A stretch of 24,074 nucleotides of DNA from a virus (IMGVR_UViG_3300040808_000895:1-24074); one strand, 5' to 3'. Shown: positions 178-16,808, counted from the first letter of the stretch. Notes: generated by a model from the sequence alone, not told the origin. Numbers and translations are program-made.

Positions 178-990
178 ATGGCAAAAATAGATTTAAAAAC
201 AAACTTAGGTGTAGACATTGACGAAATTGAGTTGACCGACGAACACGGCACTGAATGGATCAAAGTTGAATACAGCTATGAATGTCCCAACAGCAACTAT
301 TTAGAAGGCTGGGACGATACTGACACTATAGACACAGTTTACATAGGACCAAAATACCTATACTTTTATGCTAACAAAGAAGACGGATCGTTTGAACGTG
401 TATATAGAGAACACGAACTACAAGATGTTGATTTAGAACCAGATCCAGACACTTCTTTGATTAAATTTGACTGTGAGTCTGATCCGTTGGCAGCAGAAGT
501 ATTAAGTGACTATCACAATAACTTTATGGATGCTGACGAATACGAACACGAAGTTGGTCAGAAAATTATTGAATCACCACCAGGGTACGAAAATTTTGAA
601 TATCCTTACCCAATTCATCCAGATGAATTGTATTGCGATCAGCGCAGTTATTGGGATTTTGATGCTAAAAAAATTGTATTAGTAAAAATGGTTAACGAAG
701 ACTGGATCGGAAAGGCAACACCGTGGGCAGTAATTAGAATAGAAAGAGATATTCTATTAAGAAACACAGACTCTTTATATATGACTTTTAAGGCTATGGA
801 CCCAGAAGGCGAAAAAACTTTAGAACTTGAAAAATATCGTCAACTACTACGAGATATGCCACAGGCATTCGAAGGCACTGATATTCCCCTAGTCTTTATC
901 GATTCTATGTATCCAAAAACAAAATTGATCGAATATGATATTACAAGTTATGATGACTACAATCCTAATGAAGATCCTAACAACGATTAA
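178..990 (+). CDS. Acidic tail-assembly-chaperone-like protein
   Basis: A 270-aa, strongly acidic protein. The start is supported by GGAG at 166-169, eight bases before the ATG. The N-terminal half (about 1-170) is rich in Asp, Glu and Tyr and I do not recognise it. The C-terminal part (about 183-245) has the pattern W-x4-I-E-R-D-x-L-L-R-N-T-D, then Y-R-Q-L-L-R-D-M-P-Q at 220-229. This pattern is typical of the small phage tail assembly chaperone domain that often follows tail fibre genes. It lies just downstream of a fibre-like C-terminus and is closed by a strong terminator, so the two genes probably form the end of a tail-fibre transcript. The chaperone role is inferred from that motif and the position; the large acidic N-terminal domain is unexplained. 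Confidence 0.5.
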   Translation: MAKIDLKTNLGVDIDEIELTDEHGTEWIKVEYSYECPNSNYLEGWDDTDTIDTVYIGPKYLYFYANKEDGSFERVYREHELQDVDLEPDPDTSLIKFDCESDPLAAEVLSDYHNNFMDADEYEHEVGQKIIESPPGYENFEYPYPIHPDELYCDQRSYWDFDAKKIVLVKMVNEDWIGKATPWAVIRIERDILLRNTDSLYMTFKAMDPEGEKTLELEKYRQLLRDMPQAFEGTDIPLVFIDSMYPKTKLIEYDITSYDDYNPNEDPNND

Positions 991-1121: not shown

Positions 1122-2144
1122 ATGAAAAGATCTACAGTATTTTTTATCAACGGCGGAGCCGGTCGTGTGGTAACGTCAATCCCTGCATTTGAATTATACG
1201 AGAAAGAAAATCCCGATGATGATTTTATTATTGTATGCGAAGGCGGTATGGATTTTTATAAAGGACATCCTACACTACATAAACGTGCTTATGATACTTG
1301 GCACAAGGGCTTGTTTGAACAGTTTATTAAAGATAGAGACTGTGTAAGTCCAGAACCGTATCGTATTTGGGAATATTATAATCAAAAGTGTAGTATTGCA
1401 CAAGCATTTGATATCGAAATTAACAAAAAAGGTATTAGAGATTTACCTACTCCAACGATTAGTCTTAATAAATCAGAAATTGCACAAGGTAAGTCAGTTG
1501 TTGATGAAGTCAGATCAGTAACAGGATTTAGTAAGGTAGTTGTAATCCAGCCTTTTGGTAGAGGAGTAGAACAAAACTTAATCGACCAAACATCAAGAAG
1601 TTTTAGAGTAGATGATATGCTTGCTATTGCAAATCAGCTAAAACAAGAATACGGCATTATTGTTATGAGTGAATTACCGCTAAATCTTTACGAAGAAAAC
1701 GAAAACGAGCACCCGTTGGCCTTACCACAAATTCCTGACTTACGTATTTGGTCAGGAGTAATTAAAGAAGCAGATCATTTCTTAGGATGTGATAGTGTAG
1801 GACAACACGTAGCAAAAGCATTAGGTACAAAAGCAACAGTTGTAACCGGCAGTACATTTCCAATTAATACATCTTATCTAAATGATAAAGATATTACCGT
1901 ATTTGATATCGGTGAAGGTAAAAGAGTTTATGCTCCAATTAGAGCCAGTATGGAAGAAGAACCAGATAGGATAAACGATAAATCTATGGATATGAGTAAA
2001 CAACACATTAATGATATTGTAAAATCAATTAAAGAAACAACAGGCAAATCTGTAAAAAGTGCGCCTAAGCCGCCGCAAGAAATGCAACAACCGCAAGGCG
2101 AAGTTTGCCCAACACACGGTGTAGTTCATCAAGGAGGTCATTAA
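1122..2144 (+). CDS. GT9-like (heptosyltransferase-type) glycosyltransferase
   Basis: A 340-aa protein with a GT-B layout. The N-terminus is a beta strand followed by NGGAGRVVTSIPAFE (10-24), which resembles the acceptor-side start of ADP-heptose:LPS heptosyltransferases. The C-terminal half has the GT9 signature-like segment ADHFLGCDSVGQHVAKALGT, in which D224 and H229 occupy the positions of the family's D-S-G-x-x-H nucleotide-sugar-binding loop. The last 30 residues are a Pro/Gln-rich tail ending in C-P-T-H and H-x-G-G-H, which could bind a metal and is not part of the usual GT9 domain. Its stop codon overlaps the carbamoyltransferase start (TAATG). The nearby minus-strand operon makes heptose precursors, so a nucleotide-heptose donor is a reasonable inference. 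Donor and acceptor cannot be read from the sequence. Confidence 0.65.
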   Translation: MKRSTVFFINGGAGRVVTSIPAFELYEKENPDDDFIIVCEGGMDFYKGHPTLHKRAYDTWHKGLFEQFIKDRDCVSPEPYRIWEYYNQKCSIAQAFDIEINKKGIRDLPTPTISLNKSEIAQGKSVVDEVRSVTGFSKVVVIQPFGRGVEQNLIDQTSRSFRVDDMLAIANQLKQEYGIIVMSELPLNLYEENENEHPLALPQIPDLRIWSGVIKEADHFLGCDSVGQHVAKALGTKATVVTGSTFPINTSYLNDKDITVFDIGEGKRVYAPIRASMEEEPDRINDKSMDMSKQHINDIVKSIKETTGKSVKSAPKPPQEMQQPQGEVCPTHGVVHQGGH

Positions 2145-3940
2145 TGAGTTTATGGATCGCAGGTATTGCTAGAGGTCACAACGCAGGCGTATGCTTATTA
2201 AAAGACGGTGAAATTGTATTTTCAATCGAAGAAGAAAGATTAACACGTAGCAAGTATGATGGCGGACCGTTAGCGTCAATATTGAAAATTTTAGAGTACA
2301 CAGACAAACTAGATTATATGGTTGTCTCGCATACTCAAACACTTGACGAAACTGCTGGTAGACTTGATTATACCAATGAAGATATCTATACAGGACTTGC
2401 AAGAAAAATGGGTCTTATCGAAACAGGCCATCCTTGGAATAAGCATCCACAAGTCATTGATACTGCGATGTTGCATCATAAAATGCACGCCAGTTTAGCA
2501 TTTTATAGATCAGGGTTTGAGGAAGCAGTTGCAGTAATTGTTGACGGTGCAGGAACGTGTTTTACAATTGACGCAGATGGTGACCCTAGGTATATGTGGG
2601 AAACTGAAACAATTTATAAGTGTTCGTATCCTGACAATATTCAAACATTATACAAAACATTAGGTTGTAAAGATTGGTTACCGACTGTAGCAAACGAAGC
2701 ACCGGACACAGATATCTTTAACAACACTACCGGAACATTTGGCGCTTCACTTTCTGACAGAGCAGGTATTGTTAAATGTTATGAAGCAGTAACCGAATAT
2801 TGCGGATGGGACGCAATTGAAGCAGGAAAAACTATGGGACTATTTCCATATGGAGAAGAAAATTCTGAGATTCCTGAAATTTTTGATAGCACAGCACAGT
2901 GGCCTACTCCGTTGAGTAATAGAAACTTATTTGTACCAAGGTATCCAAATGGTTCTATTGTAAACGAAAATTTATACAAGCAACTACGAGATCAACCAGG
3001 CGACAGTGATCCCACACTAATGAAAAATAGAAGAGATATGGCATATGCTGTACAAACGCAAACTCAAAAAGCAGTAGCAGATGTAATTAAATATGCTGTA
3101 GAAATTAGTGGCTGTAAAAATGTAGTCATTAGTGGCGGATATGGACTGAACTGTGTTGCAAACTATTACTACCTTAAAGAATTAGAAAATGAAGGTTTAA
3201 GTATCTATGTAGAGCCAGTGTCAAATGACGGTGGTACAGCAATGGGTGCAGCGTTATGGGCTTATAGAAGTATTACTAAAGATACTACAATACATCCACA
3301 GGCAGAAACTGTATATCTCGGACCTGAACACAATATCAGTGACAAAGATGTAACAGAAATGTGTGAAAAGTTTAATGCTACTGTAACTGAAGCTACAGAT
3401 CAAGATATTGTTGATCTAATCACTAGTAGAAACATTGTAACAATATTTCAAGGACGTTCAGAAAATGGACCTAGAGCATTAGGTAATAGAAGTATATTAT
3501 ACGATCCAACAGACCCGGACGGTAAAGACTTTGTTAATAGTGTAAAGCATAGAGAGTACTTCCGCCCATTTGCAGGTAGCATTTTAGAAGAAGATGTACA
3601 CGAATGGTTTGATTTACGTGGTATGAAAAATTCACCTACAATGATGTATGCTGTAAACTGTCAACCAGGTGTTGAAGAAAAGATTCCTGCTATTATTCAC
3701 GTAGACGGAACTTGTAGAATTCAAACAGTAAATCAAGAACAGAATCCGAATTACTACAATCTCATAAAAGCATTCAAAGATAAAACAGGTTGTCCTATTG
3801 TATTCAACACTAGTTTTAATTTAGGAGGCGATCCTTTAGTAGAAACACTAGAAGATGCATTTACAACATTAGCTAAAAGTGCTATTGAATATTTGTACCT
3901 GCCAGAATTAGGTAAGCTAGTAAAGGTTGAAAATGTTTGA
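2144..3940 (+). CDS. NodU/CmcH-family O-carbamoyltransferase
   Basis: A 598-aa protein, close to the usual length of this family. The start at 2144 follows AGGAGG and overlaps the preceding stop codon; a longer in-frame start at 2105 lies inside the previous gene and is unlikely. The N-terminal ASKHA/Kae1-like domain has H-N-A-G near 12-15, E-E-E-R-L near 29-33, the metal-binding-type H-H-K-M-H (111-115) and D-G-A-G-T (134-138). The middle has SGGYGLNCVAN and NDGGTAMGAA. The C-terminal YrdC-like half has G-R-S-E-N-G-P-R-A-L-G-N-R-S (about 437-450) and FNTSFN. The family moves a carbamoyl group from carbamoyl phosphate through carbamoyl-AMP onto a hydroxyl of a sugar or nucleoside. The target here is unknown; a glycan made by its neighbours, or hydroxymethylated DNA bases, are both possible. 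Confidence 0.88.
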   Translation: MSLWIAGIARGHNAGVCLLKDGEIVFSIEEERLTRSKYDGGPLASILKILEYTDKLDYMVVSHTQTLDETAGRLDYTNEDIYTGLARKMGLIETGHPWNKHPQVIDTAMLHHKMHASLAFYRSGFEEAVAVIVDGAGTCFTIDADGDPRYMWETETIYKCSYPDNIQTLYKTLGCKDWLPTVANEAPDTDIFNNTTGTFGASLSDRAGIVKCYEAVTEYCGWDAIEAGKTMGLFPYGEENSEIPEIFDSTAQWPTPLSNRNLFVPRYPNGSIVNENLYKQLRDQPGDSDPTLMKNRRDMAYAVQTQTQKAVADVIKYAVEISGCKNVVISGGYGLNCVANYYYLKELENEGLSIYVEPVSNDGGTAMGAALWAYRSITKDTTIHPQAETVYLGPEHNISDKDVTEMCEKFNATVTEATDQDIVDLITSRNIVTIFQGRSENGPRALGNRSILYDPTDPDGKDFVNSVKHREYFRPFAGSILEEDVHEWFDLRGMKNSPTMMYAVNCQPGVEEKIPAIIHVDGTCRIQTVNQEQNPNYYNLIKAFKDKTGCPIVFNTSFNLGGDPLVETLEDAFTTLAKSAIEYLYLPELGKLVKVENV

Positions 3941-4556
3941 GTTAGTTTTTGGTAGTTTAATTTTTAAAACAAAAATGCCTAATCACGAAGAAATTAAACA
4001 AGGATTTTTGCCTTTTTTAAATGATGACAACGCATTTAATACTTCTAATAGATGGGACTGTAACTGTGATACTACAATGCATCACGAAGAACTTAATAGT
4101 AAATTACCTTGGAATTTATTTTTCCAAAATATACAACCAGGACTAGGACCGTACTTGCAAGAAATCGGTCTTAAACAAGAATATAAAGACAAAATACAAT
4201 CTTATGCGTGGGCTAATAGATATCATCAAGGACAACATCAAGAAGTACACGCACATTCCGGCGATAATAATTTAGTGAGTTGTGCGTATATTTTAGATCA
4301 AGCAGGAGAAAATACTGCTGAAAATGACGGTATGTATGGTCAATTTATTTTTTATAATAGTGCGTCAGAGCCATTTTCTCCGTTTCAAATGCATTTATTT
4401 GAAGAACCCGAAAGATGGACTGCAAGACACAATCCGTTTTTACAAGAAGGAGATATTGTGTTTTTTCCGAGTACGCTAAATCATTATGTCACGTGGAATA
4501 AAAGTGATACTATAAGAGCATCAATTAGTGCTAACTTTAGAATTTTAGAAGATTAA
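3933..4556 (+). CDS. 2OG-Fe(II) oxygenase superfamily protein
   Basis: A 207-aa protein. The ATG at 3933 follows AAGG by about six bases and overlaps the end of the carbamoyltransferase gene; a TTG at 3927 is in frame but less likely. The double-stranded beta-helix core is visible as EVHAHSGDN (H106 and H108 at the iron-binding H-x-D/H site), GQFIFYN, EGDIVFFPSTLNH (distal H184) and R195 followed by ASISANF. This is the pattern of the putative 2OG-Fe(II) oxygenases common in marine T4-like phages. The substrate is unknown; hydroxylation of a sugar, lipid or protein is possible. It ends convergently against the phosphatase gene, the two stop codons sharing TTAA. It is the third gene of a tightly packed plus-strand unit. 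Confidence 0.72.
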   Translation: MFELVFGSLIFKTKMPNHEEIKQGFLPFLNDDNAFNTSNRWDCNCDTTMHHEELNSKLPWNLFFQNIQPGLGPYLQEIGLKQEYKDKIQSYAWANRYHQGQHQEVHAHSGDNNLVSCAYILDQAGENTAENDGMYGQFIFYNSASEPFSPFQMHLFEEPERWTARHNPFLQEGDIVFFPSTLNHYVTWNKSDTIRASISANFRILED

Positions 4557-5236
4557 CGATCTAAATAATCTGCAAACTGAGCAAGATCGTCAAATATGAT
4601 GGTCTTTTTCTTTATCTTTTGATTACTAAATTTATTTAATTCTTTAATAGTCTCTTCGCCATAACCGGTACGTACTAATACAGGTTTTGCACCCATTTTA
4701 AATGCAGCTTTTAGATCTGATATCTTATCACCTACAAAGAATCCTTTGGAAAATTTAATAAAGGGCATTTCTTCTTCACACCTCTTAAACATACCCGTGT
4801 TAGGTTTTGCAAAGCCGTCTGCTCTTAGACTAGTCTCACTGTAATACAATGCATCAATACTGGAACACCCTGCTTTGCCCAATAGATCAAACATATGATC
4901 GTGTACACGTTCTACATCGTCTGTTGTATAGATACCTTTTGCTATTCCGCCTTGATTAGTAATAATTGCAATTTTATGACCTAAACGTCTAATCTTAGCA
5001 ATAGCTTCTAAACTACCCGGTATAGGCTCAAAGTCTTCAACTCGATAAGTATATTCACCCCTGTCAACATTGATAACACCGTCTCTGTCTAAGCCGACAA
5101 CAACTTTAGGTGCAATATTATGAACAGGATCATAAAAAGGAATGTCCTCAGGTTTAGGCTGATTAGTCCATCCCATATTAGTTTTAGGTGTTTGTTCTTG
5201 TTTCTTAGGAGCATTACTCCACATATTGTATGCCAT
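4553..5236 (-). CDS. gmhB: GmhB-like HAD phosphatase (heptose bisphosphate phosphatase)
   Basis: A 227-aa protein, last gene of the minus-strand sugar operon; its ATG directly follows the stop codon of the 2OG gene. HAD motifs are clear: motif I LDRDGVIN (D50 and D52), motif II TNQGGIAKG (93-101), the K-P of motif III (144-145) and motif IV VGDKISD (D170, D174). The D-R-D-G-V-I-N and N-Q-G-G-I motifs fit the GmhB/HisB-N group, which removes the 7-phosphate of D-glycero-D-manno-heptose 1,7-bisphosphate. Two things are odd. The first 44 residues are a Pro/Gln/Asn-rich extension absent from typical GmhB. The Cys/His zinc-binding loop usually found just before K-P is missing. The HldE and HldD genes in the same operon support the heptose assignment; a different sugar phosphate remains possible. 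Confidence 0.75.
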   Translation of the reverse strand: MAYNMWSNAPKKQEQTPKTNMGWTNQPKPEDIPFYDPVHNIAPKVVVGLDRDGVINVDRGEYTYRVEDFEPIPGSLEAIAKIRRLGHKIAIITNQGGIAKGIYTTDDVERVHDHMFDLLGKAGCSSIDALYYSETSLRADGFAKPNTGMFKRCEEEMPFIKFSKGFFVGDKISDLKAAFKMGAKPVLVRTGYGEETIKELNKFSNQKIKKKTIIFDDLAQFADYLDR

Positions 5237-5803
5237 CTAAATACCTACATTAAATGCAATAGTAGTCCTTACTACGTCTATTCTTTTTGTAACTACCTTG
5301 TGTTTTAGATATGAAGGGAACAACACTAGTCTTCCTTTTTCTGCTTTAACATCATAATGTGCTTGAAAGAAGGGTTTAGAGCCATCGTGATGTTGTACAT
5401 ATTCTGCAATAGTATTCGGATTATAAAATCTAATGTAGCCTGCATTTTCGTTAGCACGTAGCCAGTAAACGCCACTAATACCATCAATGCCGTGGCCGTG
5501 CATATCGTGGCCTTCATCGTCTTTGTAGTCTTGGGTCCAGTAGTGCAGTCCTTCGCCAGTTTGTATACTGGTTGCTTCTTTATATTCAGCAATACATTTA
5601 GCCCATTCGTCGGTTAGCTCAGGAGCAATTTCGTGATACAGGATTTTAGTTTCCCAGAAATCTGAACGACGGTAATCATAATCATCTCCGTTGTTTTCTA
5701 ACTTGTCTAACTCTGGGACAATACGTGTTTCTAATTCATCTGCTAAATCAGCAGGAATACGGTAGTCTAAAATTGGAACTGCAAAAAAACTACTTACTGT
5801 CAT
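5237..5803 (-). CDS. 2OG-Fe(II) oxygenase superfamily protein (operon copy)
   Basis: A 188-aa protein counted from the ATG at 5803; a GTG four codons upstream at 5815 is possible, and neither has a strong ribosome binding site. The fold markers are F-F-A-V-P near the start, H-D-M-H-G-H (H99, H102, H104) followed by SGVYWLRANENAGYIRFYNP, then LVLFPSYLKHKV (distal H168) and R179 before TTIAFNVG. The layout matches the oxygenase at 3933-4556, including an H-x-H at the iron site, but overall identity is low. The window therefore carries two members of the family on opposite strands flanking the convergent point. It overlaps the end of the cupin gene and abuts the phosphatase start, so it is translated from the same operon. 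The substrate is unknown. Confidence 0.72.
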   Translation of the reverse strand: MTVSSFFAVPILDYRIPADLADELETRIVPELDKLENNGDDYDYRRSDFWETKILYHEIAPELTDEWAKCIAEYKEATSIQTGEGLHYWTQDYKDDEGHDMHGHGIDGISGVYWLRANENAGYIRFYNPNTIAEYVQHHDGSKPFFQAHYDVKAEKGRLVLFPSYLKHKVVTKRIDVVRTTIAFNVGI

Positions 5804-6194
5804 CTTGTTTGTCACTCAACTTTTGACTGTCACCTGGACCGATACGGTAATTGTCTTCTACACTGTCAGGTGTACTTACTTCAGTAACACTACCTTCTTT
5901 AGATAAGCAAATTAATTGATGCGGCTGTAATGGTGGATTATGCCAAGTAGAACCTTCTATTAGCTCTTGCTCATAAAGTTTAGAATCTTTAGTGTCGATC
6001 CATTTTACTTTAAACTTGCCACTATTAACAAACCAAGTCTCGTCTTTTTCTCTATGAAAATGCATACTGGTCTGTCCCATTTCTCTGTTGAATACCATAA
6101 TTTTACCACAATACTTTTCATTTGTGGCCCAAATCATTTCGTAACCCCAACCTTTTTGGTCGACGCCACTTTTTCTAGTTGGTTGCTGTTCCAT
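5790..6194 (-). CDS. Single-domain cupin related to sugar-phosphate isomerases
   Basis: A 134-aa protein. Its ATG lies inside the end of hldD (20-base overlap) and is preceded by AGAGG. The cupin metal site is visible as H45-F-H47 with E52 (motif 1, MHFHREKDETW) and H92 in PPLQPHQLI (motif 2). The opening W-G-Y-E and the later S-T-P-D segment resemble type II mannose-6-phosphate isomerases and the cupin part of mannose-1-phosphate guanylyltransferases. A sugar isomerase or epimerase role in the same pathway is the natural inference. Because no GmhA is visible, it could be tested as a replacement isomerase, but nothing in the sequence proves this. The C-terminus (about 115-134) is a polar tail rich in Asp, Lys and Ser. 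Confidence 0.65.
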   Translation of the reverse strand: MEQQPTRKSGVDQKGWGYEMIWATNEKYCGKIMVFNREMGQTSMHFHREKDETWFVNSGKFKVKWIDTKDSKLYEQELIEGSTWHNPPLQPHQLICLSKEGSVTEVSTPDSVEDNYRIGPGDSQKLSDKQDDSK

Positions 6195-6993
6195 TAATAT
6201 ATTCCTCTACTGTTGCAAAGTTAATATCTGTAACTTTACTTAATTTATCTATGTTTGCACACGTATATTCCTGATACTGTGATTGTAAGTAATCGGGCAT
6301 TGGAATATACTCTATAGTTGCATTGTATGTTTTTGCAACTAGATCTGCTATTTTTTGAAAGCTCTCAGCTTTTCCTGTACCAATATTAAAAAGGCCCGGT
6401 TTTTTATTTTCTAACAACTGCTTATGTGCTTCGCAAACATCGCCTACAAATACAAAATCTCGTTCGTATTGGTCGCTGTTTTCAAATAGTGCAATAGTGT
6501 TATTTTCTTTTGCTTGTTTAATAAATTTTGTTATAGGACTTGCTTGATTACCTTTGTGATCTTCTAGCGGCCCGTATACATTAAAATAACGAAAGCCTTG
6601 AACACAAACTTTATGCTCTTGTTGCCACACCCATCTGTCGAACAAATACTTACTCCACGCATACGGTGATTGTGGAGACTTTGGATCATCTTCTCCAAAT
6701 TTTTCATACGGTCCGTAAACACTTGCACTAGAAGCATATTGAAAATTAACTCCTTTTGAGTTGCATTGGTTATAGAGCCATTTACTAAATTCGTAATTCT
6801 GTAGCATTACTTTATCTACATCTTGTTCTACTGTGCTTGATATTGCACCAACGTGTATAACCCAATCAAACCCTTCAACTTCGGGTAAGTGTTCTTCCTG
6901 CCATTCATATCCAAATAGTTCGTGATCTGGTTGTAAATAAAAAGTTAGGTTTTGACCAATAAAACCTTTGTGTCCTGTAATTAAAATTTTCAT
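6175..6993 (-). CDS. hldD: ADP-L-glycero-D-manno-heptose 6-epimerase-like SDR
   Basis: A 272-aa extended short-chain dehydrogenase. The NAD(P)-binding GHKGFIG is at 7-13, a catalytic Ser lies in ASSASVYG (about 87-94), and Y111-x3-K115 is in YAWSK. The segments FRYFNVYGPLEDHKG (134-148), ERDFVFVGDV and YIPMPDYL are characteristic of HldD (RfaD), which inverts C6 of ADP-D-glycero-D-manno-heptose; in particular the V-Y-G-P-x-E-x-H-K-G region is diagnostic. It is somewhat shorter than E. coli HldD (about 310 aa). The ATG overlaps the hldE stop codon as ATGA and has GAGG upstream. The product would be the sugar donor for heptosyltransferases such as the GT9-like protein nearby. A related NDP-sugar epimerase cannot be excluded. 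Confidence 0.82.
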   Translation of the reverse strand: MKILITGHKGFIGQNLTFYLQPDHELFGYEWQEEHLPEVEGFDWVIHVGAISSTVEQDVDKVMLQNYEFSKWLYNQCNSKGVNFQYASSASVYGPYEKFGEDDPKSPQSPYAWSKYLFDRWVWQQEHKVCVQGFRYFNVYGPLEDHKGNQASPITKFIKQAKENNTIALFENSDQYERDFVFVGDVCEAHKQLLENKKPGLFNIGTGKAESFQKIADLVAKTYNATIEYIPMPDYLQSQYQEYTCANIDKLSKVTDINFATVEEYINGTATN

Positions 6994-8129
6994 TCCTGTG
7001 CCTCTAATATTTTAGTTGTACTGTAACCATTGACTGTAGGTACAATGTGTACAGGTGCTAGATCGTGTCCAACAATTTCTTCTACGGTATAATCACCACC
7101 TTTAACAATTAGATCCGGTTGCAATTCTTTGATAAGCTCGTATGGAGTATCGTTGTCAAATACAATAACTTCGTCTACATACGGTATTAATAATAGTTGT
7201 TCCATACGTGTTTCCACGTCGTTAAACGGTCTTAGAGCGCCTTTTAAACGCTTTACGCTGTCATCGCTGTTAAGACCTACAATTAACTTATCACCTTGCA
7301 TACGAGCTTCTTTTAGCAAGGTAAGATGTCCTTTATGTAATATATCAAAGCATCCATTTGTAAATACGACCTTTTTCTTTAGATCGTTTTCTGTTAAAAT
7401 GTATGTGCCTACGTGCTTAACACTTTCAGTTGATCCTTGTACTGCAAGTGTAATTGCGCTTTCGTAATCATATTTTTTAGTAAGTGCATAAACAAATGTT
7501 GCTAAGAAGCAATCACCTGCACCTGTAACATCTGATACTTCAATACGTTCTACAGGCACGTTATACATAATATCGTCTATATTTCCAACAACATTATCGC
7601 CTGCATTAGTTACGATAAAATTACCCTTCCAATTTGTAAATTCAAAGTCCTTGAACTCTTTGTGGTTAGGTTTTACAAGCCACGCACCTTCGTATTGATC
7701 TGCGTGTTTTTTAGGATCTACAATTACCTTACAGCCAAATGTGTTTAGATATTTTATAATTTCTAATGACTTGTCTAGCACACCTTTGTTGTAATCACTT
7801 AGTATAACATATGTGTATTCGCTAAAATCTTTCTTTAGGATATTCTCTAATACAAGTTCACTGTTTGCAATAACATCGTCGTCTATACGTGTAATATAAT
7901 GTCCATCGCATAGTACTCTTGTTTTAATACTTTTAGGATAGTCATAATCAAATAGGTCTACATCAACACCTAGACTTTCTAAGTTTTTGTAAACTAATCC
8001 TGCACCACCCTGTGTTTCTATAATGTGTTCTTGTGTAACTACAGGTACAGGAGCCTCCGGACTCAAACGTGTGCTTGTTCCGTAGATATATCTGTCAATT
8101 ATTATGTCACCGATTATAAGAACTTTCAT
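6990..8129 (-). CDS. hldE: Bifunctional heptose-7-phosphate kinase / heptose-1-phosphate nucleotidyltransferase
   Basis: A 379-aa two-domain protein counted from the ATG at 8129, which directly begins the conserved MKVLIIGDIIIDRYIYG; a TTG five codons earlier is in frame. The first domain (1 to about 245) is a PfkB/ribokinase-type kinase with T-R-L-S-P-E-A-P-V-P (19-28), a Gly-rich Q-G-G-A-G and the catalytic T-G-A-G-D (202-206). The second domain (about 250-379) is a cytidylyltransferase-fold enzyme with FTNGCFDILHKGH; the H-x-G-H motif is at 265-268 and V-K-G-G-D-Y follows. This order is that of HldE (RfaE), which phosphorylates heptose 7-phosphate at C1 and later adds AMP. At 379 aa it is about 100 residues shorter than E. 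coli HldE, mainly in the kinase domain. No clear Shine-Dalgarno sequence is visible. Confidence 0.88.
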   Translation of the reverse strand: MKVLIIGDIIIDRYIYGTSTRLSPEAPVPVVTQEHIIETQGGAGLVYKNLESLGVDVDLFDYDYPKSIKTRVLCDGHYITRIDDDVIANSELVLENILKKDFSEYTYVILSDYNKGVLDKSLEIIKYLNTFGCKVIVDPKKHADQYEGAWLVKPNHKEFKDFEFTNWKGNFIVTNAGDNVVGNIDDIMYNVPVERIEVSDVTGAGDCFLATFVYALTKKYDYESAITLAVQGSTESVKHVGTYILTENDLKKKVVFTNGCFDILHKGHLTLLKEARMQGDKLIVGLNSDDSVKRLKGALRPFNDVETRMEQLLLIPYVDEVIVFDNDTPYELIKELQPDLIVKGGDYTVEEIVGHDLAPVHIVPTVNGYSTTKILEAQE

Positions 8130-8604: not shown

Positions 8605-10035
8605 TTAGAAATTTAAACGCCAGGTGCCGTTTGGATACTCGCCTTCGAAAGAAAGCAACCAATCATTACCATCAAATTTATATTGTACACCAGTGGTTAA
8701 ATTTGTAGTATAAACAGTTCCATAAACACTTAGGTCAACGTCTGCGTCAAATACAATAGTCCACTTTGATCCATCCCATTCAATTATGTCATTAGCGTTT
8801 GCTACAAAATCACTATTGTCTAGATTCTTCCAAGCATCTGCACCATCTTTATTTGCAGAATTTCCTATATCACCTAAAATAAGTATTCTTGGATTACCAG
8901 ACAATTGAAGATCATTCGGATTAGTTTTTAGAGGATCTATGATATAGTCAATTTTATTCCTTGTCCCAGCTTCGCTTGATATTGAAGTGTCTGTAGGAAT
9001 TGTATCTTCGTCCCAAATGACTGTTGCTTCTGTTTCATCCAACGGATTAATTGCTAATGCTCCTATGACATCAAAGGGCATATCTGCTCTGGTTAGTCTA
9101 ACTTGTGTAATTCCGTCTTGGAATTTTTGAGGAAATGCAAGCAAAAACTCTGGCCAAGATTTGCCGCCTACATTGCCTTTGTCGATTAATTTAATTGTAG
9201 TGTTAAGAACAAGTAGTCCTGTGTTTTGGTAACTAGTTGGCGCAACAGTAAGCCTAGTTTGAGTATTTTCCCAGTATGCTTCTGTTTTTCCTCTTTGTAA
9301 GTCGCCATTTTCGTCGATATAAATCTTTGTACTAATTTCAGCTGCATCGTCGATATCGTCAATTTCACTACCTTGGAATACTCTACTAATAACGTCAGTA
9401 ACAATGCCCAAACGCTTTACTTTAGTGGGCGGACTAATATAAATCGGTGTTGTAAAAGTTAATGAACCTACATCAATTTCTGATTCAGTTCCTGTAGGAA
9501 TACTTCTTGAACTCCACGAGATATTATCTAAGTTAACAACACTTAAACTAGTCCAGTCAAGATAATTATCAGTAGTTTGTATTTCTAAACTTGGATTAAA
9601 CAACATTAAAACTTGTTCCATAATTTGTAACTTTTGTTCTGTATTTGTAGTCCAAATGTCAACATTTACTGATAAAGTATATGGTGTAGGCATTAATCTT
9701 TCAACTGTATAGTTTTTACCTTCTTTGTTTAGATACTCATTATTATTTTCGTCGAACGCTCTTTCTCTAATGTGTGCTTTACTTACATAACTAGAATCAC
9801 TAGTTCTGCTTCTATCCATTTCAAGGCCAGTAACGTAAATTCCCATTCTAGGAGCACTTGGAATTTTATTTTCTGAATTATCTCTTAAAATACTTCCTAC
9901 TTGTCTTGTAATATCTCCATACATTACAGGAATTGTTGTAAGATTGCCTTTACCGTCTTTGTAACTAAAGCCACTCATCATCCTAATCAACTGTGTAAGA
10001 TAACGTCTTATTTGTCCGTCATAAAAATGTTGCAT
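8605..10035 (-). CDS. 15: gp15-like tail sheath stabiliser / tail completion protein
   Basis: A 476-aa protein. The N-terminal domain matches T4 gp15 in pattern: F-Y-D-G-Q-I-R-R-Y at 4-12, then I-P-V-x-Y-G, then MPTPYTLSVNVDIWTTNTEQ, a polar Gln-Ile-x-Glu-Gln helix with LMLFNPSL, and a late P-I-Y-I-S-P-P segment. T4 gp15 (272 aa) forms the hexameric ring that caps the sheath and joins it to the neck. The protein here is about 200 residues longer. The extra C-terminal part ends in short modules of the type W-D-G-S-K-W and Y-K-F-D-G-N-D-W (about 420-459). The start overlaps the gp14 stop codon (TAATG). Unlike T4, gp15 lies on the strand opposite to gp13. Confidence 0.8.
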   Translation of the reverse strand: MQHFYDGQIRRYLTQLIRMMSGFSYKDGKGNLTTIPVMYGDITRQVGSILRDNSENKIPSAPRMGIYVTGLEMDRSRTSDSSYVSKAHIRERAFDENNNEYLNKEGKNYTVERLMPTPYTLSVNVDIWTTNTEQKLQIMEQVLMLFNPSLEIQTTDNYLDWTSLSVVNLDNISWSSRSIPTGTESEIDVGSLTFTTPIYISPPTKVKRLGIVTDVISRVFQGSEIDDIDDAAEISTKIYIDENGDLQRGKTEAYWENTQTRLTVAPTSYQNTGLLVLNTTIKLIDKGNVGGKSWPEFLLAFPQKFQDGITQVRLTRADMPFDVIGALAINPLDETEATVIWDEDTIPTDTSISSEAGTRNKIDYIIDPLKTNPNDLQLSGNPRILILGDIGNSANKDGADAWKNLDNSDFVANANDIIEWDGSKWTIVFDADVDLSVYGTVYTTNLTTGVQYKFDGNDWLLSFEGEYPNGTWRLNF

Positions 10036-11448: not shown

Positions 11449-12204
11449 ATGTCATTAGCTACACAGAAACAAGAAATATTTGATTACGTAAACGCAATGC
11501 TCGGTGGAGGTATGATTGATGTTGAGTTAGACCCAGTTCATTACGAAACTGCTCTAGCAAAAGCATTATCTCGCTTCAGACAAAGGAGCGATAATGCAGT
11601 AGAAGAATCATATATGTTTATGCCCACAGTACTTGATCAAAATACTTACACATTGCCAAAAGAAGTGGTAGAAGTTCGTCAAATCTTTAGACGTTCGATT
11701 GGCTCGCGTAGTGGCGGCGGCGATGGCGGGACATTGTTTGAGCCGTTTAATATGGCATATACAAATACCTATATGATGGCAAGTAGTAATTTAGGTGGTT
11801 TAGCAACATATGATTTCTTTAGCCAATATCAAGAATTAGTAGGACGTATGTTTGGTTCGTTTATAGAATTTAAATGGAATACTACAAGCAAGCAACTTAC
11901 AATTCTTCAACGCCCGCGAGCAGAAGAAAACCTAATGTTGTACGTTTATAACTATCGTCCTGATAGTGAATTACTATCAGACTATCTAGTGGTACAGTGG
12001 ATTAAAGATTATACACTTGCTAGTTGTAAGTATATGCTAGGCGAAGCACGTTCAAAGTTTGCTACTATTGCTGGACCACAAGGCGGGTCAACTCTTAATG
12101 GAGATGCATTAAAGGCAGAAGCTCAACAAGAGATGGAAAAACTTGAACAAGAAGTTATTCAACAGGTAGCAGGCGGTGTAGGCTACGGCTTTACTATCGG
12201 TTAA
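11449..12204 (+). CDS. 13: gp13-like neck protein
   Basis: A 251-aa protein with AGAGGA upstream of the ATG. The order of features matches gp13 neck proteins of marine T4-like phages: an N-terminal helix of the type Q-E-I-F-D-Y-V-N-A-M-L-G-G-G, E-L-D-P-x-H-Y-E-T-A-L-x-K-A-L, YMFMPTVLDQNTYTLP, a Gly/Ser-rich loop, then YNYRPDSELLSDYLVVQWIK and a C-terminal helix rich in Glu and Gln. T4 gp13 and gp14 together close the head after packaging and make the tail-docking site. In T4 genes 13, 14 and 15 run consecutively on one strand; here 13 stands alone on the plus strand, divergent from 14-15. The gene is not followed by an obvious terminator. Confidence 0.8.
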   Translation: MSLATQKQEIFDYVNAMLGGGMIDVELDPVHYETALAKALSRFRQRSDNAVEESYMFMPTVLDQNTYTLPKEVVEVRQIFRRSIGSRSGGGDGGTLFEPFNMAYTNTYMMASSNLGGLATYDFFSQYQELVGRMFGSFIEFKWNTTSKQLTILQRPRAEENLMLYVYNYRPDSELLSDYLVVQWIKDYTLASCKYMLGEARSKFATIAGPQGGSTLNGDALKAEAQQEMEKLEQEVIQQVAGGVGYGFTIG

Positions 12205-12506: not shown

Positions 12507-13067
12507 ATGTTACCTAAGTTATTAGTTGTTGGCCACGGCAGACACGGTAAAGATACAGTCTGTGAAATGTTAGAAGTATATGGGTATAAGTTTCAATCAT
12601 CGTCTAAATTCTGTTCTGAACTCTTTATCTACAATGATCTAAAAGACAAGTACGGATATAAAAATGAGGATGAATGTTATACCGATAGACATAATCATCG
12701 TGCTGAATGGTATGATATGATTCATAATTATTGTAGCAACGATCTGGCAAGACTAGGACGTAATCTATTTGCAGAACACGACATTTATTGTGGTCTACGT
12801 AATAGGCGTGAATTTTTTGCAATGAAAAATGAAGAGCTTTTTGATTATGCTATTTGGGTAGATCGTTCCGATCATTTACCTGCAGAAGATAGTACATCAA
12901 TGAGTATCGAACAATGGATGTGTGATTATACATTAGACAATAATGCATCATTAGATAGATTAGAAAGAAACGTAGAAATCTTAATACGTACTATTTTTAA
13001 AAATCAGGGACTAAGTCTCCCTGCTTCCACGTTACTCCATTCTTTTGAAGAATACGCTGACAGTTAG
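12507..13067 (+). CDS. dNMP-kinase-like P-loop protein
   Basis: A 186-aa protein with AAGGA seven bases before the ATG. The Walker A loop is G9-H-G-R-H-G14-K15-D16-T17, the G-K-D-T variant seen in T4 gp1-type deoxynucleoside monophosphate kinases. A LID-like region follows the strand FDYAIWVDRSDHLP (about 112-125), and D-Y-T-L-D-N-N then precedes the C-terminal helix. Such enzymes raise dNMPs to dNDPs for phage DNA synthesis. The protein is shorter than T4 gp1 (241 aa), so another nucleotide-type kinase is possible. It has its own sigma70-type promoter inside an otherwise late region, which fits early expression. The last 24 codons overlap the 3' end of the convergent HNH gene. Confidence 0.65.
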   Translation: MLPKLLVVGHGRHGKDTVCEMLEVYGYKFQSSSKFCSELFIYNDLKDKYGYKNEDECYTDRHNHRAEWYDMIHNYCSNDLARLGRNLFAEHDIYCGLRNRREFFAMKNEELFDYAIWVDRSDHLPAEDSTSMSIEQWMCDYTLDNNASLDRLERNVEILIRTIFKNQGLSLPASTLLHSFEEYADS

Positions 13068-13332
13068 CACAAATTGTTTTTAAGTTACTAGGACGGCAAT
13101 TATCAAGATTGCCATCTATATGAAATACATTAAACTGTTCTTCGTGTTTGCTATGGTATCCGCACTTCTCACAAGTATCTAGCTTTTCGTAACCACGTTG
13201 CTTCCACTTCGGTATTCCGTGCCCTACACCATTTCGCAAACAAGTTTCACACAGCCTACGATAGTATGTTCTTTTTCCTTTTTTATAGTTTATAGCAGCA
13301 GGACGTTGTCCGCACTTACATAACGGTCTCAT
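12997..13332 (-). CDS. HNH-type zinc-finger protein
   Basis: A 111-aa protein with three pairs of metal-binding cysteines in addition to the HNH core: C5-x-C7, C28-x2-C31, C54-x2-C57 and C88-x2-C91. The core is VFHIDGNLDNCRPSNL with H71 and N78, followed by ICANCQR. In typical HNH nucleases the last motif is C-x2-C-H; here the residue after C91 is Gln, so the final His is missing. A DNA nicking or binding role is likely for the fold; full nuclease activity is uncertain. The ATG lies four bases after a minus-strand GCTAAATA box, with no Shine-Dalgarno sequence between. It is convergent with the kinase gene and overlaps it by 71 bases; the conserved-looking ending K-Q-G-D-L-V-P-D-F suggests that the overlap is genuine. 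Confidence 0.75.
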   Translation of the reverse strand: MRPLCKCGQRPAAINYKKGKRTYYRRLCETCLRNGVGHGIPKWKQRGYEKLDTCEKCGYHSKHEEQFNVFHIDGNLDNCRPSNLKTICANCQRILQKNGVTWKQGDLVPDF

Positions 13333-13344: not shown

Positions 13345-13399
13345 TCACCTTTTTGACCCCTTTTTCAGGGTGTTTAACGCACCGTTTTTATTACAAGCT

Positions 13400-13407
13400 G
13401 CTAAATA
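13400..13407 (+). promoter_or_regulatory. T4-type late promoter (GCTAAATA) for the sheath gene
   Basis: GCTAAATA with predicted initiation near 13413, giving a 36-base leader with AGGAGA (13437-13442) before the sheath ATG at 13449. The 12 bases TAACAGGAGAAC of this leader are repeated exactly in front of the tube gene. Confidence 0.7.
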
Positions 13408-13448
13408 CAAGTAGCAAAACTACGATTCGTAATAACAGGAGAACGATA

Positions 13449-16400
13449 ATGGCATTAACATCCCCAGGAGTAGAAGTCAAAGTAATTGACGAAAGTTTCT
13501 ACACTCCGGCAGAGCCTGGCACAACACCGATGATCTTTGTTGCTTCTGCGTCCAACAAGCTAAATGCTAGTGGAACAGGAACAGCACAAGGTACGCTCAA
13601 GGCAAACGCTGGTAAACCATACTTATTAACATCACAACGTGATCTAGCAGATACGTTTGGTGATCCGTTGTTTTATACAGATAACAACAATAACCCAATT
13701 CACGCTGGCGAGCTTAACGAATATGGATTGCAAGCAGCATATTCATATTTAGGTGTTTCAAACAGAGCGTGGGTTGTTAGAGCAGATATTGACTTAGCAG
13801 AAATTCAGCCTAGCTCAGATGCACCGGCATCAACTCCAGCAGCTGGCACATATTGGCTAGACACACAAACATCACAATTTGGTATTCAAGAATGGAATGG
13901 CGCAGGTGCTACAACAACCGGCGGCCAAACATTTACAAGTAAAACACCGATTGTAATTACAGATTCGACAAAATTAACAGACGGAAGTTCAGTAGTTAAC
14001 GGAACAACTGGTAAAATGCCAAAAGCAACTGTCGGTGCAATTGGCGACTATGCAGTTGTATTTGGATCAACTATTGCTAGAATGTTCTATAGAAATGCTA
14101 CAGGTACTTGGGTATTAGTAGGATCAGAAGCTTGGACAAAGAGTTGGGCAACAGTACGTGGCAACAAGTCTAACCCATCTTTTTCACAGTCATCTACAAC
14201 ATTTACAATTAACGGAACAACAGTTACAGTAACAAGTTCTAATACAATTGGCGAAGTTGCAACAAATATTGTTTCACTATTTCCATTAGGAAATATTAGT
14301 GCAGCAGCAGTAGACGGACGTTTAGAAATTTACAGCGATGGTACAGACAGTGCTGAACAGGATTCTTCAGCAGTAGGTTCTCTAGAAATTAGCGGTGATT
14401 CAACATTACTAGGCGAACTTGGTATTGCATCAGGTACTTACTATCCACCAGAACTACATATTGACAAGCATACTAGAGTTCCTGCATTTAAAGCAAGTGA
14501 TTCTTATCCACGTCCAACAGGGTCTGTATGGATTAAAACAACTGAGCCTGGAAATGGCGCACGTTGGAGAATGAAAGTATTTAACGATGCTACTAAAATT
14601 TGGGACGCAGTAGCCGCTCCAATTTATTCGTCAAACGAAGAAGCATTATACTGGTTAGATAAATTAGGCGGCGGCGCAAATATTGCAGCTGGTGATGTTT
14701 ATGTACAATCTAATGTAGCAGGCGATTCACAAAAACTAGCAACTTTTAAAGTATTCAGACGTAATGCAGTTGCACCAACAACAATTATTGGAGCAGCTAT
14801 TGGATCAAATGGTATTACAGCAGATACATATAACTTAGGTATCCAAGCAACAGCACCTAACTCTAATGCACTAAGCACTATTGCTGTTATTGAATTTACA
14901 ACAACAGGTGCAGCAACTGATGCAGATGTAATTGCAGAAGCTATTACAAATGCAGGTGTAGCCCACGTTAATGCAGAAGTTACTACAGGAAACAAAATTG
15001 TAATTACACACGCAAAAGGCGGAGATGTTAAATTAACTGACGACGGTTCAACACCAGTGTTAGGTAATGCAGGCTTTGCACATTTTGCAAATGTAAACAA
15101 CGGAACACCAAACCTATACTACGAGCCAGGAACAGATGGCGACACTGCTCCACTACAACTTCGTGGTACATTATGGAAGGCAACAATTAACGCTTCAGGT
15201 ACAGAAGTAGCATTTTATACTGCATCTGATGATGAAGTTACAGCACTAACAACTGATGGTGCATTATGGTATAATTCAATTGTTGACGAAGTTGACATTA
15301 TGATTCATAATGGTGACACTTGGGTTGGTTATCATAACTACAGTGCAGAATATGCTGATTGTGATCCTAACGGTCCGATTGTAAGTGCAAGCACACCATT
15401 ACTACAAAGTGACGGTACAGCTCTTGTAAATGGTGATTTATGGATTAGCACAGCTGATTTAGAAAATTATCCATTAATTTATCGCTACAATGCAGACCTA
15501 CAAAACACACCAATTGCAAATCGTTGGATTCTACTAGATAAAGCAGATCAAACAAGTGAAAATGGTGTACTATTTGCAGATGCACGTTACAACACAGCAG
15601 GTGCAAACAGTGGTACAGCAGGTGATATTGATGTATTACTAACTTCAAATTACTTAGATCCAGATGCACCAGATCCAGCACTATATCCAAAAGGTATGCT
15701 GCTTTGGAATTTAAGACGTTCTGGCTTTAATGTTAAGAAGTTTGTACGCAACTACATTGATATTAACAGTGACAACGAACGTTTAAATGACGAAGCAATG
15801 GGTTCTTACTATCCACATAGATGGGTAACAGAGTCAGGTAACCAAGGTGATGGTTCAGGTAGCTTCGGACGTATGGCACAGCGTAAGGTAGTTGTACAAG
15901 CGTTACAAGCTATGTTAAACAGCAACGATGATATTAGAGACGACGAATCAAGAATCTTTAACTTGATGGCAACTCCAGGATATCCAGAGCTAATTGGTGA
16001 AATGATTACACTAAACTATGACAGAGGCCTAAGTGCATTTGTTATTGGTGATACACCAGCTAGATTAAAATCAGATGCAACATCACTAAACAACTGGGCA
16101 ACAAACCAGGCACTAGCACCAGAGGACAACGACGATGGCTTAACTAGCCGCGATGAGTACTTTGGTATCTTTTATCCTTGGGGCTTCACAAGTGACAATG
16201 CAGGAAATAACGTAGTTGTTCCGCCAAGTCATATGATGCTACGCACAGTTGCACTAAGTGATCAAGTTAGCTATCCTTGGTTTGCACCAGCAGGCACAAG
16301 ACGTGGTGGTATTACTAATGCAACAGCAACAGGGTTTGTAGATGCAGAAGGCGAATTTGTAACAGTAGCGTTGAACGAAGGTCAACGTGATACATTATAC

Positions 16401-16808
16401 GCACAAGCAATTAACCCAATTACATTCATTAGTGGTGCAGGACTTGTAAACTACGGTCAAAAGACTCGTGCAAGAGGTTCAAGCGCATTAGACAGAATCA
16501 ACGTAGCACGTTTGGTAATTTACCTACGCAGCCAGTTGAATCAACTTGCTAAGCCTTACATCTTTGAACCAAATGATAAGATTACACGCGATGAGATCAA
16601 ACAAGCAGCAGAGAGCTTAATGCTCGAGCTTGTAGGTCAAAGAGCATTATACGACTTCTTAGTAGTATGTGATGAATCAAACAATACTCCAAGCAGAGTT
16701 GATAGAAATGAACTATACTTAGACATTGCTATTGAACCTGTTAAAGCAGTTGAGTTTATTTACATTCCACTAAGACTTAAAAACACTGGAGAAATAGCAG
16801 GGTTATAA
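13449..16808 (+). CDS. 18: Tail sheath protein gp18 (enlarged)
   Basis: A 1119-aa protein. The ATG at 13449 follows AGGAGA by six bases and starts the sheath signature ALTSPGVEVKVIDESF; an upstream in-frame start at 13353 precedes the promoter and is rejected. The N-terminus (1 to about 130) and the C-terminal third (LLWNLRRSGFNVKKF onward, then FEPNDKITRDEIKQAAESLM and LYLDIAIEPVKAVEFIYIP) match T4-like contractile sheath proteins. T4 gp18 has 659 residues. The extra length is a large middle region with several W/Y-containing modules (G-x-x-W-[ILY]-x-[TS] near 133, 358, 604 and 662) and two Thr/Ala-rich domains. These probably form surface-exposed domains on the sheath. The protein contracts to drive the tube into the host. 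Confidence 0.92.
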   Translation: MALTSPGVEVKVIDESFYTPAEPGTTPMIFVASASNKLNASGTGTAQGTLKANAGKPYLLTSQRDLADTFGDPLFYTDNNNNPIHAGELNEYGLQAAYSYLGVSNRAWVVRADIDLAEIQPSSDAPASTPAAGTYWLDTQTSQFGIQEWNGAGATTTGGQTFTSKTPIVITDSTKLTDGSSVVNGTTGKMPKATVGAIGDYAVVFGSTIARMFYRNATGTWVLVGSEAWTKSWATVRGNKSNPSFSQSSTTFTINGTTVTVTSSNTIGEVATNIVSLFPLGNISAAAVDGRLEIYSDGTDSAEQDSSAVGSLEISGDSTLLGELGIASGTYYPPELHIDKHTRVPAFKASDSYPRPTGSVWIKTTEPGNGARWRMKVFNDATKIWDAVAAPIYSSNEEALYWLDKLGGGANIAAGDVYVQSNVAGDSQKLATFKVFRRNAVAPTTIIGAAIGSNGITADTYNLGIQATAPNSNALSTIAVIEFTTTGAATDADVIAEAITNAGVAHVNAEVTTGNKIVITHAKGGDVKLTDDGSTPVLGNAGFAHFANVNNGTPNLYYEPGTDGDTAPLQLRGTLWKATINASGTEVAFYTASDDEVTALTTDGALWYNSIVDEVDIMIHNGDTWVGYHNYSAEYADCDPNGPIVSASTPLLQSDGTALVNGDLWISTADLENYPLIYRYNADLQNTPIANRWILLDKADQTSENGVLFADARYNTAGANSGTAGDIDVLLTSNYLDPDAPDPALYPKGMLLWNLRRSGFNVKKFVRNYIDINSDNERLNDEAMGSYYPHRWVTESGNQGDGSGSFGRMAQRKVVVQALQAMLNSNDDIRDDESRIFNLMATPGYPELIGEMITLNYDRGLSAFVIGDTPARLKSDATSLNNWATNQALAPEDNDDGLTSRDEYFGIFYPWGFTSDNAGNNVVVPPSHMMLRTVALSDQVSYPWFAPAGTRRGGITNATATGFVDAEGEFVTVALNEGQRDTLYAQAINPITFISGAGLVNYGQKTRARGSSALDRINVARLVIYLRSQLNQLAKPYIFEPNDKITRDEIKQAAESLMLELVGQRALYDFLVVCDESNNTPSRVDRNELYLDIAIEPVKAVEFIYIPLRLKNTGEIAGL

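Follow-up and report, generated by a model that had tools for sequence, protein, structure and literature searches.

Why does a marine tailed phage carry genes for the synthesis of ADP-heptose among its tail genes, and from where would it obtain the heptose 7-phosphate? ADP-heptose is a precursor of the lipopolysaccharide (LPS) core and, in animals, a potent signal metabolite. The question is raised by IMGVR_UViG_3300040808_000895, an entire virus record of 24,074 bases (the window), for which an earlier reading of the sequence (the original prediction) had described an HldE, a GmhB-like phosphatase and an HldD in one overlapping operon. The ADP-heptose cassette proved to be genuine, the heptose families being recovered by profile search, by PDB sequence matches and in an HldD tree. 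On balance we favour the interpretation that it forms a working phage ADP-heptose pathway within a tail-gene unit and that its product is a decorated heptosyl group, placed most probably on tail or fibre proteins. The cassette consists of the following genes:

1122..2144, plus strand: GT9-fold protein
2144..3940, plus strand: NodU/TobZ-type carbamoyltransferase (PF16861, 201 bits, and PF02543; 61% identity to S-SSM7)
3927..4556, plus strand: second 2-oxoglutarate (2OG)-Fe(II) oxygenase, convergent with the operon with a 4-bp overlap (profile search)
4553..5236, minus strand: GmhB-like HAD phosphatase
5237..5815, minus strand: 2OG-Fe(II) oxygenase (PF13759; profile search)
5790..6194, minus strand: metal-type cupin, candidate stand-in for GmhA (fold search, linkage)
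6175..6993, minus strand: HldD-like protein, predicted ADP-heptose 6-epimerase, 272 amino acids
6990..8129, minus strand: HldE-like fused PfkB kinase and nucleotidyltransferase, compact with 379 amino acids
8157..8591, minus strand: Nudix hydrolase, first gene of the cassette (profile search)

Downstream of a gp15-like gene the minus-strand order is Nudix, HldE, HldD, cupin, 2OG oxygenase and GmhB-like, and the successive gaps are 13, 27, −4, −20, −26 and 0 bases. The HldE, HldD and GmhB-like genes are intact open reading frames (ORFs), and the gaps of −4, −20, −26 and 0 bp from HldE onwards bear out the overlapping operon; the cupin (5790-6194) and the 2OG-Fe(II) oxygenase (5237-5815) within it had been passed over. 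Convergent with the operon run the plus-strand genes for a tail-fibre chaperone-like protein, the GT9-fold protein, the carbamoyltransferase and the second 2OG oxygenase.

The best NCBIfam family of the HldE-like protein is by far HldE (282 bits). The protein is a fusion of a PfkB kinase (PF00294) with a CTP_transf_like domain (PF01467), the best PDB sequence matches of the two halves being HldA (4e84) and a heptose-type (HldC-type) nucleotidyltransferase (5x9q), respectively; the kinase half is shortened yet has kept its motifs, and the catalytic motifs DVTGAGD, NHKE, HKGH and GYSTTK are all present. The HldD-like protein scores 252 bits with TIGR02197 and 58 bits with GalE, the next non-HldD family, and its four best PDB sequence matches are all HldD. 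In our tree, which is small with only two bacterial HldD, the phage HldD-like proteins fall together with bacterial HldD (94/97) and separate from other short-chain dehydrogenases/reductases (SDRs). By family the protein is predicted to be an ADP-heptose 6-epimerase. The GmhB-like protein matches PRK08942 with 136 bits, has GmhB (4pnh) as best solved match and has kept the HAD motifs DxDG, TNQ, KP and GDK.

Several points weigh against these names. All three proteins score below the curated NCBI cut-offs (for HldE 282 versus 521 bits, for its domain II 161 versus 181.5 bits), which we attribute to the phage proteins being compact and divergent and because of which their functions are given here as predictions. 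A zinc-binding Cys/His loop is a feature of E. coli-type GmhB; a motif scan of the phage phosphatase found no such cluster, the only cysteines being Cys 124 and 153, and the protein is therefore called GmhB-like rather than GmhB. Its gene is also missing from some relatives, an occasional loss that fits the partial redundancy of GmhB in E. coli and Klebsiella (PMC9302095).

In the pathway that we propose, sedoheptulose 7-phosphate would be converted to D-glycero-D-manno-heptose 7-phosphate by the cupin or otherwise by a host GmhA. The kinase of HldE would add a second phosphate, the GmhB-like phosphatase would take off the 7-phosphate, the nucleotidyltransferase of HldE would form ADP-D,D-heptose and HldD would epimerize it to ADP-L,D-heptose. 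The phage thus has homologues of HldE, GmhB and HldD of the bacterial pathway (GmhA-HldE-GmhB-HldD), from which it differs in lacking an SIS-type GmhA, in the cupin within the operon, in the compactness of the enzymes and in the neighbouring tail genes.

GmhA was the only step that the original prediction had not seen. The record ends at 24 kb, and the search was moved to relatives: an SIS_2-type gmhA was found in none of 48 related records, nor on a 335-kb jumbo-phage contig with the whole cassette, nor in the complete genomes of P-SSM2, S-CAM1, S-SSM7 and Bellamy. The gap as such therefore stands for the relatives searched; what had been overlooked is that the linked cupin may be the isomerase. 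One candidate had to be rejected. The protein labelled 'phosphoheptose isomerase' in cyanophages (T4-GC306; the same label is carried by phrog_1238) is a short HAD protein without an SIS domain, as in the following cases:

L081:13119-13463
L082:11092-11415
L171:11055-11390
L172:8013-8321

The label is likely a repeated misannotation, and in several cyanophages it is wrong whatever the role of the cupin.

The cupin could be a functional stand-in for GmhA without being a member of the GmhA family. Its metal set His-His-Glu-His (H45, H47, E52, H92) is invariant, and its fold neighbours include D-lyxose isomerases among other cupins. The conversion of sedoheptulose 7-phosphate to D,D-manno-heptose 7-phosphate involves the same stereochemical change as that of fructose 6-phosphate to mannose 6-phosphate, which is known in cupin isomerases. 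All 35 phage records with the cupin also encode a heptose-7-phosphate kinase, 31 of the HldE type and four of the HddA type. The latter, HddA-HddC records, are Bellamy (twice), SynMITS9220M01 and AG-345-E15. In the GDP-heptose-type genes of Bellamy and SynMITS9220M01 the same cupin family adjoins a heptose-7-phosphate kinase and a nucleotidyltransferase, but the kinase is a GHMP kinase not homologous to HldE and the nucleotidyltransferase is of the NTP_transferase type. From the sharing of the cupin by two unrelated kinases we infer that it makes or handles a substrate common to both.

That this cupin replaces GmhA as sedoheptulose 7-phosphate isomerase is a tentative proposal, distinctly less than an even bet. 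Evenly balanced is the probability that it is not the isomerase of this step, host GmhA supplying the heptose 7-phosphate and the cupin modifying a later intermediate, for example as a nucleoside diphosphate-sugar ketoisomerase or another tailoring enzyme. This alternative accounts for the generic profile matches (oxalate decarboxylase, WbuC, weakly phosphomannose isomerase and lyxose isomerase). The weak match to type II phosphomannose isomerase (PF01050 is matched weakly by 18 of 19 members, with a best E value of 0.0028, and for GMP_PMI the best E value is 0.0007) counts against the GmhA-replacement proposal, and so do the bacterial homologues, which stand alone, in one genome in a housekeeping context; those in Actinobacteria, Chloroflexi and Giovannonibacteria had no heptose context. 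SynMITS9220M01, moreover, has a distant SIS GmhA-like protein besides the cupin. Against the alternative it counts that the cupin follows two non-homologous kinases, HldE and HddA, that within the set the GmhB-like gene is dispensable and the cupin is not, and that the SIS protein of SynMITS9220M01 sits by the other kinase. That phage (L170, L174) has two HddA-like kinases, one adjoining the cupin and one adjoining the SIS protein, as if both isomerase types were interchangeable.

Marinoscillum-type chromosomes carry a lone cupin that shares about 60% identity with its phage counterpart (L085:9914-10372; L086:9986-10372), and a transfer of the cupin between phages and such bacteria is possible. 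The idea that in the order of Marinoscillum the presence of the cupin tracks the absence of gmhA was dropped: there is only one genome with a strong cupin, which is without a strong SIS_2 (n = 1), and a number of genomes without the cupin also lack a strong SIS_2. A related metagenome-assembled genome (MAG), G050, has both the cupin and an SIS_2, the latter lying within an apparently separate GHMP-kinase heptose cluster.

If the cupin does replace GmhA, it would add a novel class of enzyme to a step that has been studied thoroughly. In the most far-reaching version, which we regard as improbable, marine phages use the cupin as a novel sedoheptulose 7-phosphate isomerase, of a class distinct from SIS proteins, in both ADP- and GDP-heptose routes; the phage pathway could then run unaided even where the host has no heptose metabolism, and carbamoylated heptose would be placed on the phage's own tail fibres.

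The cassette is widely conserved. HldE relatives are encoded on 565 virus stretches, of which the 80 best were examined for synteny. The order Nudix-HldE-HldD-cupin-(2OG)-(GmhB) is kept in most of these about 80 loci, the GmhB-like gene being usual and the cupin being seen in every relative whose contig runs on beyond HldD. The GT9-like gene is present in 18 of 25 related records, and most of the remaining seven are short or break off at or close to the cassette; in some relatives a virion protein of 2,000-2,450 amino acids sits between both halves of the cassette. A family of marine T4-superfamily phages shares the block and cyanophages have it in rearranged form; the cupin is part of it throughout, and tail genes adjoin it in both groups. 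In one relative a formyltransferase (PF00551; L077:11945-12466) lies between HldD and the cupin, which hints at another decoration.

In the cyanophages P-SSM2, S-CAM1 and S-SSM7 the corresponding genes (T4-GC 302-308) encode a GT9-like protein (GC302), a carbamoyltransferase (GC303), a nucleotidyltransferase (GC304), a kinase (GC305), the cupin (GC307) and HldD (GC308). The cassette again lies near tail-fibre genes, in S-CAM1 and S-SSM7 also near the gp13-gp15 neck/tail genes, and the slot between tail-fibre genes and gp13/gp15 is similar in the lineage of the window and in these two phages. In cyanophages, however, the two halves of HldE are separate and reversed, HldD is encoded on the opposite strand and the place of GmhB is taken by a short HAD protein, and S-SSM7 has an extra halogenase, whereas the lineage of the window has a fused HldE, a full-length GmhB-like protein and a large terminase (TerL) of the PA5oct type.

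The cassette is therefore not new in kind. The co-occurrence of T4-GC 304, 305, 307 and 308, identified here as nucleotidyltransferase, kinase, cupin and HldD, was reported by Sullivan et al. 2010 (PMC3037559); the related cluster of S-SSM6a was interpreted by Iyer et al. 2021 (PMC7824862) as serving polysaccharide decoration or secondary metabolism; pelagimyophages carry rfaE (PMC7029224) and SynMITS9220M01 carries heptose genes (PMC7378029). In the literature searched we found nothing earlier on a distinct phage lineage whose cassette has a fused HldE and a GmhB-like protein, on a cupin tied to two kinase types, on the absence of gmhA together with the false label, or on a GT9 fold in which the catalytic residue has been exchanged.

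The last of these concerns the protein that would transfer the heptose. It gave no significant Pfam match in the window scan and no useful match in a PDB sequence search. Its AlphaFold2 model (predicted template modelling score, pTM, 0.79), when compared with the PDB by Foldseek, had GT9 proteins as its top 30 matches, including Veillonella GT9, TibC, WaaC and WaaF, with an E value of 1e-9 to GT9 and of about 3e-5 onwards to other GT-B families. With bacterial GT9 proteins hhalign gave 94% over the C-terminal half, and the nucleotide-site motif CDSVGQH is retained. Against an active transferase, and making its activity doubtful, stands the alignment of an invariant Arg15 with the catalytic Asp of the GT9 GD motif, Asp13 in the N-terminal GD motif of WaaC; we therefore class the protein as GT9-fold rather than as an active GT9 member. 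TibC, a protein heptosyltransferase that heptosylates an adhesin (PMC4358343), shares with the phage protein, as do other bacterial autotransporter heptosyltransferases, the GT9 fold and the nucleotide-site motif, but it requires its catalytic Asp110 (the D110A mutant is inactive), whereas Arg occupies the corresponding GT9 position in the phage protein. Thus the fold and the opposite strand of the GT9-like transferase originally predicted were right, and the name heptosyltransferase is not simply applicable. Either the catalytic base has been relocated or the protein binds instead of transfers.

The GT9-fold protein, the carbamoyltransferase and the 2OG oxygenases resemble a sugar decoration set. 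Carbamoylated heptose occurs in the Pseudomonas LPS core, and together these proteins may convert the heptose to a heptosyl group that carries decorations such as O-carbamoylation. Tail and fibre proteins of the phage would be its most likely acceptor, favoured because the cassette sits among tail genes, with the host surface in second place. Delivery of the product to the host surface, with LPS or capsule being remodelled in infection to block superinfection or to change the receptor, is the standing interpretation of cyanophage LPS clusters (PMC7824862) and of rfaE and glycosyltransferases in pelagimyophages (PMC7029224), and the structural matches of the GT9-fold protein include WaaC and WaaF. 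We nevertheless consider it the less likely reading: the cassette lies in a tail-gene run, for which late expression would be expected, and cyanobacterial LPS contains neither heptose nor KDO (3-deoxy-D-manno-octulosonic acid) (PMC4390846), which leaves the related cassettes of cyanophages no heptose core of the host to rebuild. The position beside tail genes is shared by two marine phage lineages that are only distantly related, and the hosts of one of them, cyanobacteria, have no heptose in their LPS; this suggests a use specific to the phage, for instance glycosylation of the virion.

Quite improbable is that the cassette makes, instead of a glycan, a diffusible sugar metabolite, carbamoylated and hydroxylated, that would act as a signal, as an antibiotic or in counter-defence; it is one option of Iyer et al. 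for the S-SSM6a cluster of carbamoyltransferase, halogenase, 2OG oxygenase and cupin (PMC7824862), but on longer related contigs the GT9-fold protein goes with the cassette, which is linked to tail-fibre genes. Just as improbable is that the enzymes have moved to another sugar, their heptose names reflecting ancestry only, as the divergence, compactness and sub-cut-off scores of the proteins and the lost GT9 catalytic residue might suggest, since several separate heptose-family enzymes are retained together with heptose-enzyme motifs and the HldD-like protein falls with true HldD in the tree.

The surroundings of the cassette encode T4-superfamily structural proteins:

178..990, plus strand: tail-fibre assembly chaperone-like protein (PF16778, 33.9 bits; PHROG tail-fibre assembly)
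8605..10035, minus strand: gp15-like tail sheath stabiliser, upstream of the cassette in the same strand run (PF16724, 81.7 bits)
11449-12204: head-tail adaptor
13353-16808: tail sheath

Tail tubes and a TerL are also encoded. The description as a T4-like phage holds for these structural genes; the closest match of the TerL, however, is that of Pseudomonas jumbo phages of the PA5oct type (55%) and not that of T4 or cyanophages.

As to the host, the 335-kb contig (G049:C57) encodes a permuted tmRNA (transfer-messenger RNA) of the alphaproteobacterial type (L117:2048-2355; RF01849, 145 bits), a hint at an alphaproteobacterial host for this relative; among 21 related records, the other 20 being mostly fragments, it was the only one with this marker. 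The contig was binned with a Neomarinimicrobiota MAG, of which a second contig repeats the cassette region (PBPT01000016.1 and PBPT01000082.1; L083, L084). The 335-kb contig also has a second cluster of cupin-like, nucleotidyltransferase, HAD-like and SDR genes (130009-132481; L121:10009-12481).

In a variant lineage (L019, L020, L076, L079, L080) the heptose cassette adjoins a ferredoxin-dependent bilin reductase (L020:4729-5406) and a protein with an aminotransferase fold that is similar to 5-aminolevulinate synthase (L080:2632-3861), which recalls the pcyX/alaS phages of PMC11480375. In the window itself the tail sheath ORF is long (1151 amino acids) and is adjoined by an opposite-strand HNH-endonuclease-like gene (12997-13332).

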